A DNA stretch of 43,776 nt from Fidelibacterota bacterium (GTDB lineage: Bacteria; Fidelibacterota; UBA2242). The stretch lies in the NCBI GenBank assembly GCA_016782645.1, contig JADHYC010000015.1, positions 1 through 43,776 on the forward strand. The letters run 5' to 3'. Positions 34,913-43,776 of the stretch are shown in pieces. Under the pieces are notes generated by a model. It did no database searches and was not told where the DNA came from. It saw nothing but the letters and a program-made list of their open reading frames with translations. Each line of letters opens with the position of its first letter. Position 1 is the stretch's first letter. Made by a program: the position numbers and the translations under genes.

Positions 34913-34930
34913 ATGAAAACCCGTTTTCAT
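34913..34930 (+). terminator. Hairpin downstream of the EIIA/PII gene
   Basis: ATGAAAAC (34913-34920) and GTTTTCAT (34923-34930) are exact inverted copies with a 2-nt loop, 20 nt after the stop codon. The stem is AT-rich with no separate T-run, so termination is only possible. Confidence 0.35.
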
Positions 34931-35097
34931 TAGGCGGCACACAAAAAATGAACTTTGTCGATATAGAAGGAATTTTCAGAATCTTTTCAGTTTCGTCAGG
35001 TCCTCAGATCTGACGAAACTGAAAATTCGTATAGTTGATGAGTCAGGAGATGATTATTTATATACTGAAAAGTCTGTTCTACGTTTGTGCCGCCTAA
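34930..35097. repeat. 168-bp inverted-repeat element with nested, partly alternative stems
   Basis: The outer arms TTAGGCGGCAC (34930-34940) and GTGCCGCCTAA (35087-35097) are perfect. Inside, TTTTCAGTTTCGTCAG (34984-34999) and CTGACGAAACTGAAAA (35010-35025) form a perfect 16-bp stem with a 10-nt loop. GAATTTTCAG (34970-34979) could instead pair with CTGAAAATTC (35019-35028), and CTTTTCAGT (34983-34991) with ACTGAAAAG (about 35064-35072), so alternative folds exist. No protein is encoded. MITE-like element or structured RNA; undecided. Confidence 0.6.
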
Positions 35098-35177: not shown

Positions 35178-35235
35178 TTGACAAATATAAAGGTTAATTA
35201 GTAAATTGGAAACGTATGGAACTAAAAACGTTTCC
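35178..35235 (+). promoter_or_regulatory. Candidate promoter and operator over the tetR start codon
   Basis: TTGACA (35178-35183) is followed after about 20 nt by TAAATTGG (35202-35209), close to the FCB-type TAnnTTTG -7 box. This would place the transcript start at or next to the ATG (35216). No ribosome binding site is present, which fits a leaderless mRNA. An inverted repeat GGAAACGT (35208-35215) / ACGTTTCC (35228-35235), arms perfect, spans the start codon and is a good candidate TetR autoregulatory operator. The match is by eye. Confidence 0.4.
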
Positions 35236-35854
35236 AGTGGGCAATAAAGAACTACCTGAGAAATTCAGACCAATTATTGAATATGCCAGACAAAAAATTA
35301 TGGCTTATGGCATAAGAAATTTTACTGTAGAAAAATTTGTTTCTGATCTACATATCAGCAAAAAAACAATTTATAAATATTTCAGTACAAAAGAAGAATT
35401 CATCGAAGCAGTTTTGTTTTACAATTATAACGAGCTTTTTTCAAGTGTAGATGCAATCCAACCTGATGATAAAGACCCGTTAAAAACGGTATTTATGGTA
35501 TTACAAGAGATTTTTAATAATATATCGAAAATGAGTTCAGAGTTAGTGTACGATGTAAAGCTTTTCTATCCAAAGGTATGGAACAGTATTGAGAAATTTA
35601 GGGAAGAAGTAATTGACAAAATTTATAATTCTTTCATTATAGCTCAGGGAATGGGATTAATTCGAAAAGATATTGATTTAAAGTTCAATGCAAATCTGAT
35701 TATGAAAATTATCCAAACTGTTTTTCAACCTGAATTTTTAATTTGTTCGTCTTATTCATTGTCCGATATAATAAAAATGTTTATAGACCTTATGATGAAT
35801 GGACTTATGGAAAAAGATAAGTCCTTTGACTTTTCTTTAATTGAGGATAAATAG
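35216..35854 (+). CDS. TetR-family transcriptional regulator
   Basis: 212 residues. The N-terminal TetR helix-turn-helix is clear: IIEYARQKIMAYGIRNFTVE, then VSDLHISKKTIYKYFSTKEEF (residues ~20-65). The C-terminal ~140 residues are the helical ligand-binding and dimer domain, which names no ligand. The gene immediately precedes the RND pump cluster on the same strand (64 bp gap). TetR proteins next to RND/MMPL genes usually repress them and respond to a lipid or other hydrophobic compound; here that is inference. Start ATG 35216 lacks a ribosome binding site and is overlapped by a palindrome. Confidence 0.92.
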   Translation: MELKTFPVGNKELPEKFRPIIEYARQKIMAYGIRNFTVEKFVSDLHISKKTIYKYFSTKEEFIEAVLFYNYNELFSSVDAIQPDDKDPLKTVFMVLQEIFNNISKMSSELVYDVKLFYPKVWNSIEKFREEVIDKIYNSFIIAQGMGLIRKDIDLKFNANLIMKIIQTVFQPEFLICSSYSLSDIIKMFIDLMMNGLMEKDKSFDFSLIEDK

Positions 35855-35918
35855 TGATTATTAGCAGGTTGGAGAATAAAAACCATGAATATTATAACCA
35901 TAACTTAGAGAATTATTT

Positions 35919-38210
35919 ATGAAATCCTGGATTGATTTTGTATTAAAATATCCGAAAACTATTATTGCTTTCTGCATTTTAATAACGGTTTTAATGGGAT
36001 GGAATATTCCAAAACTTGAGATCGAACCAGATTTGAAAGCAATGTTTCCCAAGGATTTTGACATAATTGTTTCTATGAATGAAATGGAGGATATATTTGG
36101 CGGCTCAGAACTAATAGTCATGTCAATTTCTTCTGATGATATTTTTAATAAAAGCACTCTTAAAAAAATTGATGACATAACAGAGGAAATAGAAGAAATC
36201 GAAATGGTCGAGAAAGTCTTATCATTGACTAATGCTGTTGATATAAAGGCTACTGAAGATGGATTTGAAGTTGGTGAACTTTTTGAGGATTATCCGGAAA
36301 CCACGGAAGAAGTAACGGCAATCAAACAACGCATTATTGACAATGAAATGCTTTATGGCAACATTGTGTCGAAAGATTTTAAGAAGTCGGCTATAATTTC
36401 CATATTGGAAGTAACAACCGGAGATAGTGATGATGATGAAATATCATTTTTATTTAATAAGGTAATTAAAAAATATGAAGGATCTGAACAGATTCATATT
36501 GCCGGAATGCCTCTTACACGTTATGAAGTCACTAATACAATGCAGTCAGACATAAAAACACTTTTCCCATTCGGGATTGTCTTGATGATATTTTTATTAG
36601 TTTTTTGTTTTCGGAGCTGGATCGGTGCCTTTTTACCTTTCATAGTTGTTATTATGAGCATTATTAATATGATTGGACTGATGGCATTGCTCAGGATAAA
36701 ATTTACTTTTATTGGGATAATGACTCCGGTAATGTTGATCGCCATTGCTAACGATTATAGTATTCATATTGTTGCTCATTATTTTGAAGAGTATAAAAAT
36801 CGTGATTATAGGAGTAAAGACCTAATAATCAAATCAACACTTCAACATCTCCAAACCCCGGTATTTTTGGCTGGTATTACTACTATTATTGGATTTTTAA
36901 GTCTTCAATCACATATTCTCCCACCAGTAAGGCAATTAGGTTTATTTGTGTCTTTTGGAATTACAATAGCTTTTATTTTAAGTCTTACTTTTGTACCGGC
37001 AGCTTTAAAACTCTTGGATTATCCGGTTTTTTTGACGACAGGAAATTCAACAGAGAAAATGAACAGATTTCTAAGAAAATGGGGAAATTTATTTACTCGA
37101 CATAAATCAAGTTTTTTACTGATTGTTGCTCTAACCAGTCTGGTTATTTCGACAGGGATAACCAGGATCAATGTGGATACAAATCCAATTTACTTCTTTA
37201 GAGAATCGTCGGAGATTCGTAGAGGTAATGAGGTGATAGATAAAGTATTTGGTGGTTCATCGCAGCTAGCAATCCTGGCAAAAGGTGATATAAAATCGCC
37301 GGATTTTTTAAAAAAAATAGAGCAATTAACCAACTTTCTTGATGAAAAGAATAATATAACTCAAACATCTTCTATCATTGACCAGCTTAAATTAATGAAT
37401 AAATCCTTTCACAGTGATAGTACTGAATATAAAGTAATTCCCAAAACTCGCGATGAAGTTGCTCAATATCTATTTCTCTATTCTCTAACAGGTGATCCTG
37501 AGGACCTGGATCATTTTGTGGATTATGATTATGAGCAGGCACAGATATTGGTGAGAGTAAATGAAACCGGTTCGGCAGCGTCGTTTAAATTATATAATGA
37601 AGCAAAAGTGTTCGTTAAAAATGAGCTGGGTGAAGAAAATTTCCCGTCTATTACAGGTGTTACAGCTTTTATCGGTGTATTATCGGATTTGGTAATTAAG
37701 GGTCAGATTAGAAGTCTTATACTTTCAATCTTTTTTGTCTGCCTGGTAAGCGCAATAATCTTTAGGTCAATCATAGGTGGATTATTATCAATTGTTCCTC
37801 TCGGTGGTGCAATTGTTATAGTTTTTGGATTAATGGGCTACTTACATATTGATTTAAATATGGCGACAGTAATGCTTTCAAGTATAATGATAGGAGTTGG
37901 AATTGATTATACGATTCACTTCTTATATCGGTATAGGCTGGAAGTTAAAAAAGGTGCTAGTGCGGAAGAGGCAGTTACACTAACTCTAACAACTAGCGGA
38001 AAGGGAATTATCTATAATGCACTTTCGGTTATTGTTGGATTTTCAGTATTGATGATCTCCGGATTTCTACCCATCTATTTTTTCGGGTTTTTAATCGTAT
38101 TTTCAATTACCGGTTGTTTACTTGGAGCATTATCGGTAATGCCTGCACTGTTGGTACTTTTTAAACCGGCTTTCATTTTCAGTAAAAAGAGGAATATCGA
38201 TGACAGATAA
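35919..38210 (+). CDS. MMPL/RND-superfamily transporter
   Basis: 763 residues with the duplicated RND layout: helix 1 (YPKTIIAFCILITVLMGWN), a periplasmic loop (~30-220), five helices with the GIMTPVMLIAIANDYSIHIV segment, then a second half starting at FLLIVALTSLVISTGITRI, with its loop and the matching SSIMIGVGIDYTIHFLYRY. The paired ANDYSIH / GIDYTIH motifs carry the Asp-Tyr pairs of MMPL pumps such as MmpL3. At 763 residues it lacks the large docking subdomains of AcrB and is closer to hydrophobe/lipid exporters. No membrane-fusion adaptor is encoded nearby; a LolA-like carrier and an outer-membrane protein follow in the same operon. Its stop overlaps the next gene by 11 bp. Confidence 0.92.
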   Translation: MKSWIDFVLKYPKTIIAFCILITVLMGWNIPKLEIEPDLKAMFPKDFDIIVSMNEMEDIFGGSELIVMSISSDDIFNKSTLKKIDDITEEIEEIEMVEKVLSLTNAVDIKATEDGFEVGELFEDYPETTEEVTAIKQRIIDNEMLYGNIVSKDFKKSAIISILEVTTGDSDDDEISFLFNKVIKKYEGSEQIHIAGMPLTRYEVTNTMQSDIKTLFPFGIVLMIFLLVFCFRSWIGAFLPFIVVIMSIINMIGLMALLRIKFTFIGIMTPVMLIAIANDYSIHIVAHYFEEYKNRDYRSKDLIIKSTLQHLQTPVFLAGITTIIGFLSLQSHILPPVRQLGLFVSFGITIAFILSLTFVPAALKLLDYPVFLTTGNSTEKMNRFLRKWGNLFTRHKSSFLLIVALTSLVISTGITRINVDTNPIYFFRESSEIRRGNEVIDKVFGGSSQLAILAKGDIKSPDFLKKIEQLTNFLDEKNNITQTSSIIDQLKLMNKSFHSDSTEYKVIPKTRDEVAQYLFLYSLTGDPEDLDHFVDYDYEQAQILVRVNETGSAASFKLYNEAKVFVKNELGEENFPSITGVTAFIGVLSDLVIKGQIRSLILSIFFVCLVSAIIFRSIIGGLLSIVPLGGAIVIVFGLMGYLHIDLNMATVMLSSIMIGVGIDYTIHFLYRYRLEVKKGASAEEAVTLTLTTSGKGIIYNALSVIVGFSVLMISGFLPIYFFGFLIVFSITGCLLGALSVMPALLVLFKPAFIFSKKRNIDDR

Positions 38211-38568
38211 AAGAGATGAAATATTTTCAAAAATTTTCTTCGTTCCTACAATATTAATAGTAATTTATTGGATCATAACGGAGTTGATAAAGTTATATAA
38301 TTGGCTATCAGGACTTTCTTCTTATAATTCTGGATGGTGGTTGAGTATTGGAAATTTCTGCTTGAGTAATCTGAGTATTATTATTGTGATTTATATAATT
38401 ATATGCCTGCAAGCAGCTGGTATTGCTGAGTTTAAATACAGGAAAAATTTCTTGAAGGCGTTTTTTCTTGGATTGATAATGACACCACTGGTTATGATAG
38501 CTGCATGGGGAAGAAAGAGAAATACTAATCCTTCCGAAGGTTTTCCCAGAGGGATTCCTTTGGAATGA
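38200..38568 (+). CDS. Small three-helix membrane protein
   Basis: 122 residues with three hydrophobic segments (FFVPTILIVIYWIITELI, LSNLSIIIVIYIIICLQ, FLKAFFLGLIMTPLVMIAAW) and a short basic/polar tail. I recognise no family. It overlaps the transporter stop by 11 bp and shares its last ATGA with the following frame, so it is firmly inside the operon and translationally coupled on both sides. An accessory role in the pump complex is a reasonable inference with no direct motif support. Confidence 0.8.
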   Translation: MTDKRDEIFSKIFFVPTILIVIYWIITELIKLYNWLSGLSSYNSGWWLSIGNFCLSNLSIIIVIYIIICLQAAGIAEFKYRKNFLKAFFLGLIMTPLVMIAAWGRKRNTNPSEGFPRGIPLE

Positions 38569-38603
38569 ACCTTTGGAAGGATGATATAGAATTGGAGGTT
38601 GAA

Positions 38604-39401
38604 ATGAAAAAAGTATTTATAATTTTTATTATAACAATATTGCTACTTTCTCTCAATAAGTTTGGTTATTCTCAGTTAACTGGACGGGATATAATGATAA
38701 AAGTAGATGAACAGCAGGATGTAAAAAGTCAATATGCCAAAACCAAAATGACATTAATCAATAAGAGAGGTAAAACACGCATACGTGATGTTTTGAGATA
38801 CGAAAAATCATACTATGGTGAGAAAGGCATTGATACTAAGACTCTTATATTCTTCGAATATCCACCTGATATACGAGGCACAGGTCTGCTTTTATGGAGC
38901 TATGAAGACATTAAGAAAGACGATGATCGCTGGCTCTATTTACCTGCATTAAAGAAAATAAAGCGGATTGCTGGAGAAAGTAAGAATAACTATTTTATGG
39001 GAACAGATTTCACTTATGATGATATGGGTGGACGTGAGGTAGATGAAGATACTCACGAACTTTTAGGACAAGATGAAATTGATGGTATCAATTGCTATAA
39101 AGTTCAGTCAATACCTGTTGATAAAAATGATATGTACAGTAAAAAATTTGGTTGGGTGATACCCGAAAAATGGGTTGTGTTCAAAGTTGATTTTTACGAT
39201 AAGAGAGGAAAACTAATTAAAGAATTAAGAGCAAGTGATTTTCGGGAAGTTAGTAATATATGGACTACTTTTAAGCTTCACATGAATAATTTTGGTAAAA
39301 ACCATCAGACCGTAATTGAAGTTGAAGATATGAAATATAATATTGAAATAAAAGATCAAGTATTTATGAAAACAACACTACAGCGGGGCAGGGTAAAATG
39401 A
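38604..39401 (+). CDS. LolA-like outer membrane lipoprotein-sorting protein
   Basis: 265 residues from ATG 38604, chosen because GGAGG lies 7 nt upstream and a signal peptide starts there (MKKVFIIFIITILLLSL... to GYSQ). An in-frame ATG at 38565 overlapping the previous stop would add 13 charged residues. The mature protein matches the LolA-like 'outer membrane lipoprotein-sorting' family: SQYAKTKMTLINKRGKTR, DTKTLIFFEYPPDIRGTG, DDRWLYLPALKKIKRIAG, FMGTDFTYDDM and a KFGWVIPEKWVVFKVDFYD segment. The fold is a beta-half-barrel that shields a hydrophobic ligand in the periplasm. Sitting between an MMPL pump and an outer-membrane protein, it is a plausible lipid shuttle. Confidence 0.9.
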   Translation: MKKVFIIFIITILLLSLNKFGYSQLTGRDIMIKVDEQQDVKSQYAKTKMTLINKRGKTRIRDVLRYEKSYYGEKGIDTKTLIFFEYPPDIRGTGLLLWSYEDIKKDDDRWLYLPALKKIKRIAGESKNNYFMGTDFTYDDMGGREVDEDTHELLGQDEIDGINCYKVQSIPVDKNDMYSKKFGWVIPEKWVVFKVDFYDKRGKLIKELRASDFREVSNIWTTFKLHMNNFGKNHQTVIEVEDMKYNIEIKDQVFMKTTLQRGRVK

Positions 39402-40699
39402 ATCAAAGAAAGAGGTGTGTTTTAATAATATTTGTGATAATGTTTATTAATCTCTCTGTTTTTACTGATCTTTTTGCACAGGTTGAATTTCATGGGTTTG
39501 TGAGAAATCACAGTGCTTTTAGAGTGGATAAGCCAAATGATGCTATGCTCCTGCGTAATAGACTTCGATTAAATTCTGAGCTCTGGGGTGATAATGTTTA
39601 TGCTTTTGCTTCATTTGATATTTTAAATGACGTAGCTGACTCAGCTATAAATATTCTGAACTTAAGAGAAGCTTATCTGGATATCTACAGTTCATTTGTT
39701 GATTTCAGGATTGGTAAGCAGCAGGTAGTTTGGGGAAAAGCAGATGGATATTTTATTAATGATATTGTGAACCCACTTGATCTATCCTATTTTCTTCTAC
39801 AAGATTTTGATGATATTCGTATGGCAACAACTATGCTTAACACTAAGTTATACTTTGGAAATCACTCACTGGAAGTATTAGTAATTCCTGAATTCAAACT
39901 CACTAAAATAAGTTTTAAAGGAGATTGGGGATTTGAGAGACCTGATTCAATTGACATACTAATCGATCCAATTAATTCAATTATTGTCAGTTTGCCCTTG
40001 AGTTATCAACAGGATAAAATACAAGAAAAATCTATTCGTAAAGCTGAATATGGATTTAAATTTAATACATTCTTGCTCGGCACAGATTTATCAATAATAT
40101 ATCTTAAAGTAAGGGAAGATAAGCTAATATATTTAAAACAAATAGTGGCAGATAATTACGGTTTACATAATGGAGTAAACCTTACTCCATCCCATCCATG
40201 GGTTACATTTTACGGTGCGAACTTTTCCAGACCTTTTGGGACCTCTGTTTTTCGAGGAGAGGGAGGATATTACACGAAGCGACTTTTTGATACAGAAGGT
40301 GTGAAATATATAAATGAAGGAATGCTGGTGGAAAAAGGGTTTGTTCAAGGCATGCTCGGAATAGACTACCAGCTAACCGGTGATATTGATATAGGGGTTC
40401 AGGCAATTCATGAGAGGATACTTGACTATGAAGATGGAATAGTTAATGACGATGCGAATTCTATTGGAACTTTTTTAATTCGTGGAAGATTCTTTAATGA
40501 GACGGTTCTCCCGATGATTTTAACATTATATAACATCGATAATAAATCCTCACTTTCACGAATTATGGTAGATTGGAACTATTCAGACAGTTTTATAATT
40601 ACTTTTGGCATAGATATTTTAGAAGGAGATAGCGATACTATTTTCGGGCAGTTTAACAGAAATGATAATGTGTATTTGAAAGTAAAGTATAGCTTTTAA
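39398..40699 (+). CDS. DUF1302-like outer-membrane beta-barrel protein
   Basis: 433 residues with a signal peptide (VLIIFVIMFINLSVFTDLFAQ) and alternating amphipathic strands to the end (DNVYLKVKYSF, a C-terminal Phe as in many outer-membrane barrels). Segments LRNRLRLNSELWGDN, NLREAYLDIYSSFVDFRIGKQQVVWGKADGYFINDIVNPLDLS and RPFGTSVFRGEGGYY agree with the DUF1302 family (the GKQxVxWG...xxDVxNPxD element). It overlaps the LolA-like gene by 4 bp (ATGA). Family members occur with LolA-like proteins and RND/MMPL pumps. A pore or acceptor in the outer membrane for the same cargo is inferred. Confidence 0.85.
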   Translation: MNQRKRCVLIIFVIMFINLSVFTDLFAQVEFHGFVRNHSAFRVDKPNDAMLLRNRLRLNSELWGDNVYAFASFDILNDVADSAINILNLREAYLDIYSSFVDFRIGKQQVVWGKADGYFINDIVNPLDLSYFLLQDFDDIRMATTMLNTKLYFGNHSLEVLVIPEFKLTKISFKGDWGFERPDSIDILIDPINSIIVSLPLSYQQDKIQEKSIRKAEYGFKFNTFLLGTDLSIIYLKVREDKLIYLKQIVADNYGLHNGVNLTPSHPWVTFYGANFSRPFGTSVFRGEGGYYTKRLFDTEGVKYINEGMLVEKGFVQGMLGIDYQLTGDIDIGVQAIHERILDYEDGIVNDDANSIGTFLIRGRFFNETVLPMILTLYNIDNKSSLSRIMVDWNYSDSFIITFGIDILEGDSDTIFGQFNRNDNVYLKVKYSF

Positions 40700-41272
40700 G
40701 GGCGTTCTCAGTATCGTGAAAAATAAACCGTACCCCGAACCTCCAGGTTCGGAACTAATAGCGAAACTTGAATGTGTAATTACAAACTGTCCAATTTGAA
40801 TATCTAATTCGGCAGTTGCAGGCTCGACGATAATTTATAAAGTTGGTATTTAATTACCGCAATGTGTCCTGGCTCTATGTATTATGATGCAAAGGCAAGT
40901 AAATTTTTAATATTCTATTAGCGCGAGTTCACTTATAGCAGAACTTGTTAATAAAATTTAAGTTTCAATCTTAATGATTTGTAACAGAACCTTGTGAAGG
41001 TTTGCTCCAAATACCATATAAATTTCTACTCTGTACAAAAATGCTATCTATTGGGACGGGATTTTTTATGTAAGAAATTCCTTTGGAAAAGGTCAAAAAC
41101 ATCGAAAGGGCTTAACCTCTCCTTAGTATAATGTATTGCATTATAGAAAGGTAAATCCTTGCTTCTCAAGTTACTAAAAAATAACTTAACAACTTGAAAA
41201 ATGGATTATTTAATTGAAATTTTATTTATATTTAAATTTCAGAAAATTTGAAAATTCTCATTCAGGGGTATA
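40700..41272. other. 573-bp intergenic region upstream of alaS with several hairpins
   Basis: No reading frame is supported. At 40735-40752 CCGAACCT-CC-AGGTTCGG is a perfect 8-bp hairpin. Near 40990 AACCTT-GTG-AAGGTT is a small one, at 41127-41145 TATAATG-TATTG-CATTATA, and at 41168-41187 AAGTTA/TAACTT, overlapped by CAAGTT/AACTTG (41167-41196). No T-box consensus is seen. The first hairpin may lie at the end of the envelope operon; the last three could sit in an alaS leader. Confidence 0.5.
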
Positions 41273-43776
41273 ATGAAAACATCTCGAGAAATAAGAGAAG
41301 ATTTTATTGACTTTTTTAGAAATCACGATCACAAAATAGTAAAAAGTGCGCCTGTGATTCCACAAAACGATCCTACGTTACTTTTTACTAATGCAGGAAT
41401 GAATCAATTTAAAGGAATATTCTTAGGAGAAGAAAATCCAAAATATCCTCGAATTGCTAATTCACAGAAATGTATACGTGTCAGTGGAAAACATAATGAT
41501 CTTGAGGAAGTAGGTAAAGATACATATCATCATACTTTTTTTGAGATGTTGGGTAATTGGTCATTTGGTGATTATTATAAAGAAAAAGCAATAGAATTAG
41601 CCTGGGAACTATTAACTGAGGTCTGGAAATTCCAGAAAGAACGTCTCTGGGTCTCTATTTACAAGAAAGATGATGAAAGTGCGAAAATTTGGAAAGAGGT
41701 AACCGATATTCCCTCGAAAAGGATCTTAAGATTTGGTGAAAAGCATAACTTTTGGGAAATGGGGAATACCGGCCCATGTGGTCCTTGTTCTGAAATACAT
41801 TACTATATTGGTAATTCACCCGAGAAGCAAGATGCAAGGAATATAAATATTGGTGATCCAGAATATATAGAACTCTGGAATTTGGTTTTTATTCAATATG
41901 ATCGAGATGAAAAAGGCGTTTTACATAATTTACCATCCAAGCATGTTGATACAGGAGCAGGTTTTGAACGAATAGTTGCTGCATTACAGGAGAAAAAGTC
42001 TAATTATGATACTGATCTTTTTGCTCCTTTAATTAAAAGAATTTCAGAGATAACAGGTATTGATTACACACAAGAAAAAGGAATACCGCATCGTGTAATA
42101 GCAGACCATATAAGGATGCTTTCTTTTTCAATTGCTGATGGTGGAATGCCATCAAATGAGGGTAGAGGATATGTGATCCGGCGAGTTTTAAGAAGGGCAG
42201 CGCGATTTAGTCGGATGTTAAATATGCATAAACCTTTTATGTTTCAACTTGTGGAGCCAGTGACTGAGATATTTGGAGATATTTATCCTGAAATATTAGA
42301 GAGAAAAATCCATATTCAGAGAGTTATTAAAACTGAAGAAGAATCCTTTAGTGGGATTCTTGATAGAGGTCTGGAACTCTTTTCAACAATCACGGAAGAA
42401 TTAAAAGCCAAGAAAAAAAATGTAATTCCGGGTCCCGATGTTTTTAAACTTTATGACACTTATGGGTTTCCATTTGATCTTACTGCTCTTCTTGCTGAAG
42501 AGAAAAGATTTAGTATTGACGAAAATGGCTTTTTTAACGAGATGGAAAAACAGCGAGAACGAGCTCGAGCCAGAGTATCATTTCAGGTAAATAAAAAATG
42601 TAGTATTGATAAATGGATTGTAATAACAGAGGGAAAGGATTCAGAATTCGTTGGTTGTGAATCGGAAAGTTCCAATGCAATAATTCTCCGTTATCTGATC
42701 GATGGAGATGAAATCCAAATTGTTCTCGACAGAACTCCATTTTATGCTGAATCTGGAGGACAGGTAGGAGACACAGGAATAATAACTGGGAAAGATTTTA
42801 CTATAAATGTTGAAAACACCTTTAAATCCAACGATTTCATCATTCACCTTGGAAAATTAGAGAATGGAAAAATCAGTGATAACCCAGAAGTATTCGCTAA
42901 AATAGATAAAGAACACCGCCAGAAGATTAGATTAAATCATACTGCTACACATCTTCTTCATTCCGCATTAAGAAAAGTACTTGGTGATCATGTTCATCAG
43001 TCGGGTTCTCTTGTGTCCCCTGATAGACTTAGATTCGATCTGACACATTATTTAAAAATATCTCCAGAAGAATTAAAAGAAGTAGAAGATATAGTGAATC
43101 AAAAAATTAGAGAAAATATAAAAGTTGACATTCAGAATAGGGATTATGAAGAAGCAAAGAAATCCGGCGCTATGGCTCTCTTTGGTGAGAAGTATAGTGA
43201 TATTGTAAGAGTTATTACAATAGGTGAATATTCACAAGAATTATGTGGTGGAACACATGTAAATAGAACAGGCGATATTGGATATTTTAAAATCATATCT
43301 GAATCATCTGTAGCTGCTGGTATTCGTCGTATTGAAGCAATTACAGGTGAAGCAGCAATTGAAGAAGCCAGACGTAGTGAAAATATTATTAGCAGTCTTG
43401 AAAGAATAACTAATATTTCCAAAGATAAATTAGAAAAGAAAATTGAGAGATTATTAAAAGATATCAAAACTTTAGAAAAAGAACTTGAGAAACAAAACAA
43501 AATAGCTTTGGAGTTTCAGCTAAAAGAGAGAATAGATAACTCTCCATCAGTGGGTGAACTTAAAATTTTCACTCAACAGGTTGATTCGAAAAATATTGAC
43601 GAATTCAAGAGAATGGGAGATATTGTAAGGTCTAATCTTAAAGAAGGTGTTGGAGTTCTTGCTACAGTTATTGAGAATGAACCTCTTATTGTAGTGGTTG
43701 TAGCAGATTCAACTATAAAGAAATATAGAATAAAAGCAGGTGATTTAGTTAAGACACTCGGGAAAATACTAGGCGG
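41273..43776 (+). CDS. alaS: Alanyl-tRNA synthetase, C-terminus cut by window edge
   Basis: 834 complete codons of a protein normally near 875 residues, open to the window edge. An AGGGG ribosome binding site precedes ATG 41273. Domains in order: class II core (REDFIDFFRNHDHKIVKSAP, LLFTNAGMNQFKGIFLG, HHTFFEMLGNWSFGDYYK, FWEMGNTGPCGPCSEIHY, DTGAGFERI), the tRNA-recognition helices (EGRGYVIRRVLRRAARF), the editing domain with its zinc ligands (LNHTATHLLHSALRKVLG and ELCGGTHVNRTGDIG) and part of the C-terminal oligomerisation/DHHA1 region. It charges tRNA(Ala) and clears Ser/Gly errors. All key residues are present. Confidence 0.97.
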   Translation, partial: MKTSREIREDFIDFFRNHDHKIVKSAPVIPQNDPTLLFTNAGMNQFKGIFLGEENPKYPRIANSQKCIRVSGKHNDLEEVGKDTYHHTFFEMLGNWSFGDYYKEKAIELAWELLTEVWKFQKERLWVSIYKKDDESAKIWKEVTDIPSKRILRFGEKHNFWEMGNTGPCGPCSEIHYYIGNSPEKQDARNINIGDPEYIELWNLVFIQYDRDEKGVLHNLPSKHVDTGAGFERIVAALQEKKSNYDTDLFAPLIKRISEITGIDYTQEKGIPHRVIADHIRMLSFSIADGGMPSNEGRGYVIRRVLRRAARFSRMLNMHKPFMFQLVEPVTEIFGDIYPEILERKIHIQRVIKTEEESFSGILDRGLELFSTITEELKAKKKNVIPGPDVFKLYDTYGFPFDLTALLAEEKRFSIDENGFFNEMEKQRERARARVSFQVNKKCSIDKWIVITEGKDSEFVGCESESSNAIILRYLIDGDEIQIVLDRTPFYAESGGQVGDTGIITGKDFTINVENTFKSNDFIIHLGKLENGKISDNPEVFAKIDKEHRQKIRLNHTATHLLHSALRKVLGDHVHQSGSLVSPDRLRFDLTHYLKISPEELKEVEDIVNQKIRENIKVDIQNRDYEEAKKSGAMALFGEKYSDIVRVITIGEYSQELCGGTHVNRTGDIGYFKIISESSVAAGIRRIEAITGEAAIEEARRSENIISSLERITNISKDKLEKKIERLLKDIKTLEKELEKQNKIALEFQLKERIDNSPSVGELKIFTQQVDSKNIDEFKRMGDIVRSNLKEGVGVLATVIENEPLIVVVVADSTIKKYRIKAGDLVKTLGKILG

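Follow-up and report, generated by a model that had tools for sequence, protein, structure and literature searches.

The small membrane protein (hereafter SMP) encoded in an envelope gene cluster of a Fidelibacterota bacterium is a new element, which occurs across the phylum and is tied to one clade of MMPL pumps. The cluster lies on contig JADHYC010000015.1, in a stretch of 43,776 nucleotides (hereafter the window). On balance, we lean slightly towards the view that the cluster exports a lipid or another hydrophobe along a shuttle-type route driven by protons, in which SMP would operate as an accessory subunit of the pump.

The ORF list of the window and the Pfam matches delineate five genes on the + strand, forming one cluster: a TetR-family regulator (35216..35854, 212 aa; Pfam TetR_N, 5.7e-8); an MMPL/RND inner-membrane pump (35919..38210, 763 aa; Pfam MMPL, 2.2e-47); SMP (38200..38568, 122 aa, three predicted membrane helices; no credible Pfam or PDB family); a putative periplasmic carrier of the LolA_like family PF17131 (38604..39401, 265 aa from the second ATG; 1.4e-61); and a DUF1302 outer-membrane barrel (39398..40699, 433 aa; Pfam DUF1302, 1.2e-13). 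A sequence-only reading of this DNA had claimed this cluster with overlaps of 4-11 bp or spacings within 40 bp, these four families and the absence of a membrane-fusion adaptor and of TolC, and it was right on each count. All four Pfam matches are above their cut-offs; MMPL and SMP overlap by 11 bp, and LolA_like and DUF1302 by 4 bp; and none of the five proteins is a membrane-fusion protein or a TolC according to Pfam, so that the cluster does not qualify as a classical tripartite RND pump (HAE1), which comprises both. SMP and LolA_like either overlap by 4 bp (first LolA_like ATG) or are separated by 35 bp (second ATG, at 38604), the latter start being preferred because most homologues begin there. 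The gap between TetR and MMPL is 64 bp, and TetR is therefore less tightly packed than the other four genes. Behind the cluster stand a terminator-like hairpin (40732..40755, a strandless match to the consensus only) and then the gene alaS, at 41273. Terminator-like sites in the region numbered seven versus a mean of 2.3 in shuffles, and promoter-like sites 39 versus 32.6 expected (sd 6.8), i.e., not above expectation. Beside the window's own cluster there is no substrate gene, and no catabolic genes adjoin it.

SMP is present in 13 of the 23 genomes of the class, the window's included, and in all 12 others it resides inside the same cluster, contig ends allowing. Between the window SMP and the copy from the same genus, dN is 0.074 and dS 0.290, and the resulting dN/dS of about 0.26 indicates that the gene is under constraint. 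Because of this recurrence and this divergence, we regard the cluster as more than a chance assembly. A profile of the 13 SMPs matched 55 of the 245 genomes of the phylum, 53 of which were counted as credible; the hits in G114 (E 0.005) and G179 (E 0.0025) are interrupted by stops and do not enter the SMP counts. The 53 genomes hold 54 SMP places, 53 of which are covered by the neighbourhood counts, the last one (L147) having been read separately. MMPL is the immediate 5' neighbour of SMP in 52/53 places and in L147, i.e., in 53/54. The script had given 50/53, and L094 and L098, where the SMP stretch that it delimited extended into the MMPL gene, were added from the overlap in the ORF table. 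The exception (L021) has MMPL directly 3' and overlapping SMP; TetR and MMPL1 are missing there, and SMP runs into MMPL2. On the 3' side of SMP, the next family member is LolA in 44/53 places (at a distance of 722 bp in L077), MMPL in six and none in three (L078-L080). LolA is found somewhere in the run in 51/53 places, the runs of L022 and L079 being cut by contig ends, while TetR is the first gene of the run in 17/53 and DUF1302 (E<=1e-10) occurs in 21/53. From these linkage counts we consider MMPL, SMP and LolA to be the core, and TetR and DUF1302 to be optional. Hence, the claim that these genes belong together stood for MMPL-SMP-LolA, mostly kept together in relatives, but failed for TetR and DUF1302, which the run lacks at most loci outside the class.

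A FastTree phylogeny of 74 MMPLs placed the 55 with an adjoining SMP in one group (support 87), and the 19 without SMP outside it. These proteins, of at least 600 residues, were drawn from the SMP loci and from 20 loci chosen by LolA, a choice that biases the tree; in addition, FastTree issued a warning about long branches beyond the SMP group, and L094 is counted among the 55, as its 'none' label is an artefact. The converse test provides a check free of this bias: in the 245 genomes, 55 have a match of at least 861 bits to the clade profile, a line set after seeing the list (next match, 827 bits), and 51 of these 55 carry SMP. In one of the four others (G051), the contig stops at the 3' end of MMPL. 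The remaining three (G054, G056 and G057, from one family; loci L136-L138) have a GDSL lipase/acylhydrolase of 231-256 residues in the SMP slot; this lipase has a signal-peptide-like start and sits between MMPL and LolA. A gene for a KAS III-like synthase was observed beside the MMPL-SMP-LolA core in L097, L103 and similar loci of family f21, and another near the Haliovirga cluster (L151:2074-3108). Together, the GDSL lipase in the SMP slot and the KAS III neighbours point to acyl substrates. In other MMPL-LolA-DUF1302 clusters of the phylum, the SMP slot is empty or holds two half-size ArsP_1 permease proteins, and one genome (G016) has both cluster types, with SMP (L025) and without it (L115). 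The two half-size ArsP_1-like proteins stand between MMPL and LolA in L115 (according to Pfam) and L119 (by similar reading), and the same arrangement probably occurs in L116 and L122, also by similar reading, both loci being cut by contig ends.

The three hydrophobic stretches of SMP match the three membrane helices predicted with low confidence by AlphaFold (3-37, 45-56/58-80 and 84-109; mean pLDDT 63.9). In an alignment of 26 of the 53 members, D6, Y65, G74, E77 and P96 are invariant, and C69, Q71 and T95 nearly so; a positive stretch suggests that the loop after E77 is cytoplasmic. The window SMP has no credible Pfam family at E<=1, and a Pfam scan of the 26 members gave a best value of 0.00042 (DUF5360, in 2/26), with no family common to more than 4/26. 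The search of PDB profiles yielded no family (best E 3.2), and the fold search with the SMP model no match (best Foldseek E 2.7). In these Pfam and PDB searches, SMP thus matched no described family of small RND accessory proteins. Both this lack of a Pfam or PDB family and the tie to MMPL in the phylum bear out the sequence-only reading, which had singled out the small three-helix protein as a possible undescribed component. SMP was not found at E<=1 in 72,556 plasmid records, nor in five records of MMPL-LolA-DUF1302 clusters from other phyla. A strict-pattern scan of genome contigs, which misses more distant members and is too strict to demonstrate absence outside the phylum, detected SMP in 12 loci (11 from the window's class and one from family f31).

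The window pump exceeds the gathering cut-off of PF03176 (162.1 bits versus 20.5, in two stretches) and its genome has no other strong MMPL match, the two further hits being far weaker. It reaches 307.5 bits against TIGR00921 (HAE3), aligned over 10-747 of 763, versus a curated cut-off of 351.9, and we therefore describe it as HAE3-like without filing it as a member. It possesses the two Asp-Tyr pairs of an MmpL3-type relay, in the motifs ANDY (D279-Y280) and GIDY (D663-Y664), which, by analogy with MmpL3-type pumps, we presume to lie on TM4 and TM10, respectively, and to serve in proton relay. The C-terminal half aligns with MmpL3 over equal lengths (652-750 on 245-343), so that D663 falls on MmpL3 residue 256, which we take to be a proton-relay residue. 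The TM10 Asp (663) is conserved in 74/74 MMPLs. In five relatives (L022-L026), SMP is flanked by an MMPL gene on either side, and the pump encoded by the first of them lacks the TM4 Asp; these clusters run TetR-MMPL1-SMP-MMPL2, with LolA-DUF1302 behind in the four uncut loci. In the double clusters, position 279 is Ser (TSSY) in 5/5 MMPL1 and Asp (ANDY) in 6/6 MMPL2. Elsewhere, L029 and L031, with a single MMPL each, have Ser there, and Asn prevails in family f21. The nearest MMPL found outside the phylum is that of Haliovirga abyssi (41.8% identity over 98%).

The LolA_like protein scores 207.9 bits against PF17131 (gathering cut-off, 30), also matches DUF1329 (8.1e-12) and starts with a signal-peptide-like stretch. 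Its predicted model (mean pLDDT 57.5, residues 63-143 under 50) is too weak to judge a cavity, and therefore we used the crystal structure of the closest solved homologue, P. gingivalis LolA3 (9TP6; profile E 9e-84; 43% identity over the mature protein and same fold). LolA3 (PGN0947), which is kept apart here from the LolA gene of the iron-responsive operon of P. gingivalis, was reported to have a hydrophobic groove, to lack the signature residues of both LolA and LolB as well as the beta2-beta3 Arg of Lol-pathway LolA, and to bind LolB weakly; its authors suggest a separate function (PMC13103446). The groove, the missing signatures and the weak LolB binding support a carrier of non-lipoprotein cargo. 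The DUF1302 protein reaches 51.4 bits against PF06980 (gathering cut-off, 23.2), over profile positions 134-365 of 541 only. It has a signal-peptide-like N terminus and ends in ...YLKVKYSF, the final residue being Phe in 11/12 of the members compared.

The TetR regulator weakly resembles the FadR model (1.6e-7, far below its cut-off) and likely represses the operon. Nested inverted repeats at 34930-35097, which precede TetR closely and combine 12-nt outer arms (TTAGGCGGCACA) with a 19-bp hairpin (34984-35025), were considered as a mobile element, a candidate that was dropped because the assembly holds one copy only, not counting the match of the repeats to their own self-complementary hairpin. 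In L025, TetR is preceded by a gene for a response regulator whose C-terminal part is unknown (L025:9618-10376, the only one analysed with Pfam); similar genes occur in L022, L023, L026 and L030, but no such gene precedes TetR in the window. The genome of the window has a second TetR-LolA_like pair (L002:639-2046, on C68), with no MMPL within the 2.1 kb of sequence available there.

By analogy with MmpL3-type pumps, we propose that the MMPL pump would lift a compound out of the inner membrane through its paired Asp-Tyr motifs, at the expense of protons. LolA_like would take this compound into a hydrophobic groove, like that of its 43% identical homologue, and cross the periplasm with it; the DUF1302 barrel, where present, may receive or release it at the outer membrane; and TetR would switch the operon. 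SMP, as a putative lineage-specific accessory subunit that presumably binds the pumps of this clade in the inner membrane, could aid their assembly, the loading of the substrate or its hand-over to LolA. A bolder possibility, which we put forward tentatively and with more doubt than conviction, is that SMP represents a new class of obligate subunits of RND lipid pumps, loading the substrate or docking LolA, and that MMPL1-SMP-MMPL2 is a hetero-oligomer of one pump without the TM4 Asp (MMPL1) and one with it (MMPL2), SMP being at the joint. Conversely, SMP might be a mere conserved operon neighbour outside the pump, e.g., a membrane enzyme or a stress protein acting alone. The evidence for its interaction with the pump is indeed linkage, and the core occurs without SMP both in family f15 and in the five clusters from other phyla, which implies that it can work without SMP. 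Nevertheless, we find such a bystander rather unlikely, because the adjacency to one MMPL clade is kept down to about 21% SMP identity and because, in one family (L078 and L080), SMP stays with MMPL while LolA is on the other side.

Concerning the route itself, the sequence-only reading had claimed a shuttle-type export of lipids or hydrophobes. The likeness to a shuttle stands, whereas lipid export is still a proposal, as related sets have been linked to other roles, namely monoterpene tolerance, growth on Tween 20 and iron/heme limitation. MmpL3 and HpnN, the characterised representatives of the pump types closest to this one among solved structures, move lipids outwards, and this speaks against uptake or recycling, in which a hydrophobe of external or outer-membrane origin would travel through DUF1302 and LolA to the inner membrane. 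We judge this reverse direction quite unlikely, even though two observations favour it and count against our export proposal. In P. putida, growth on Tween 20 was reported to require PP_0765 (DUF1302) and PP_0766 (DUF1329), which correlate with the efflux transporter PP_2019 (PMC10866462); this requirement fits uptake as well. Furthermore, TetR-MMPL-LolA operons were reported to be induced 13- to 136-fold when P. gingivalis is short of iron, with a strong rise in P. intermedia too (PMC10434189), and to rank with the most strongly under-expressed genes when hemin is in excess (PMC10470040), a response not expected of a simple lipid exporter. The lack of a substrate gene beside the cluster and the score below the HAE3 cut-off also count against the export proposal. 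It is also unlikely that the cluster is an export/tolerance pump for toxic small hydrophobes, with proteins forming or approaching a trans-envelope channel and a TetR sensing the compound, as might be thought from the AmeABCD system of Castellaniella defragrans. The reported system combines DUF1302, DUF1329 and HAE3 proteins, its deletion lowers monoterpene tolerance (PMC6394551), and the window LolA_like also matches DUF1329; however, the cluster has no AmeC/YCF48-like protein and no adjoining catabolic genes. A branch of lipoprotein sorting (Lol), evoked by the LolA fold and the family name, appears highly improbable: LolA_like is paired here with an RND pump, P. gingivalis LolA3 without signature residues was reported hardly to bind LolB (PMC13103446), and the deletion of lolA3 in F. 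johnsoniae reportedly left gliding and amylase secretion unaffected (PMC11885536).

Our preferred reading, the export shuttle with an accessory SMP, bears on a poorly known process, i.e., the transit of lipids and other hydrophobes to the outer membrane without a tube, for which the MMPL-LolA-DUF1302 sets of several phyla give conflicting hints as to the substrate. As SMP tracks one pump clade across the phylum, it offers a handle on the meeting of pump and carrier, and the double-MMPL clusters, in which one half of the relay is lost, amount to a natural experiment on asymmetry in RND pumps.

Similar MMPL, LolA-like and DUF1302 neighbours had been anticipated in other bacteria, and they do occur. 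Similarly to the window's cluster, AmeABCD comprises a DUF1302 protein, a LolA-superfamily periplasmic protein and an HAE3 pump, which are co-expressed, and neither system has a classical adaptor or a TolC, as far as the available text of PMC6394551 goes. It differs by its YCF48-like AmeC, absent from the window's five proteins, which keeps the cluster out of a subfamily defined by AmeA, AmeB, AmeC and AmeD in one cassette; by its LolA partner, a 451-aa DUF1329 protein in place of PF17131; and by the lack of any mention of an SMP in that text (PMC6394551). The operons of P. gingivalis and P. intermedia are reported to have MMPL and LolA_like in the same order, together with TetR and with ABC-transporter genes added (PMC10434189, PMC10470040). 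In the P. putida set PP_0765/PP_0766/PP_2018/PP_2019, a phenotype links DUF1302 and DUF1329 proteins to an efflux transporter, but the genes lie in two separate loci, are needed on Tween 20 and come with no mention of an SMP in the available part of the paper (PMC10866462). As for P. gingivalis LolA3 (9TP6), neither operon nor cargo is given in the accessible part of its report (PMC13103446). The Prevotella nigrescens plasmid NZ_CP082843 carries MMPL, LolA_like (41.8% identical) and then DUF1302, but no SMP, and its MMPL is only 23.4% identical. The Haliovirga abyssi plasmid pHIC has the same three families in a different order (DUF1302-MMPL-LolA, with MMPL between the other two) and no SMP. 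AcrZ, the accessory protein of AcrB, is a single helix. Like SMP in our proposal, this small membrane protein assists an RND pump (PMC7267776), but its partner is a tripartite drug pump and the PDB profile search revealed no sequence likeness to SMP. Our literature search found no paper naming both Marinimicrobia and MMPL. Together, these comparisons show that the MMPL-LolA-DUF1302 layout is already known, widespread and little understood, and that SMP is its new part.
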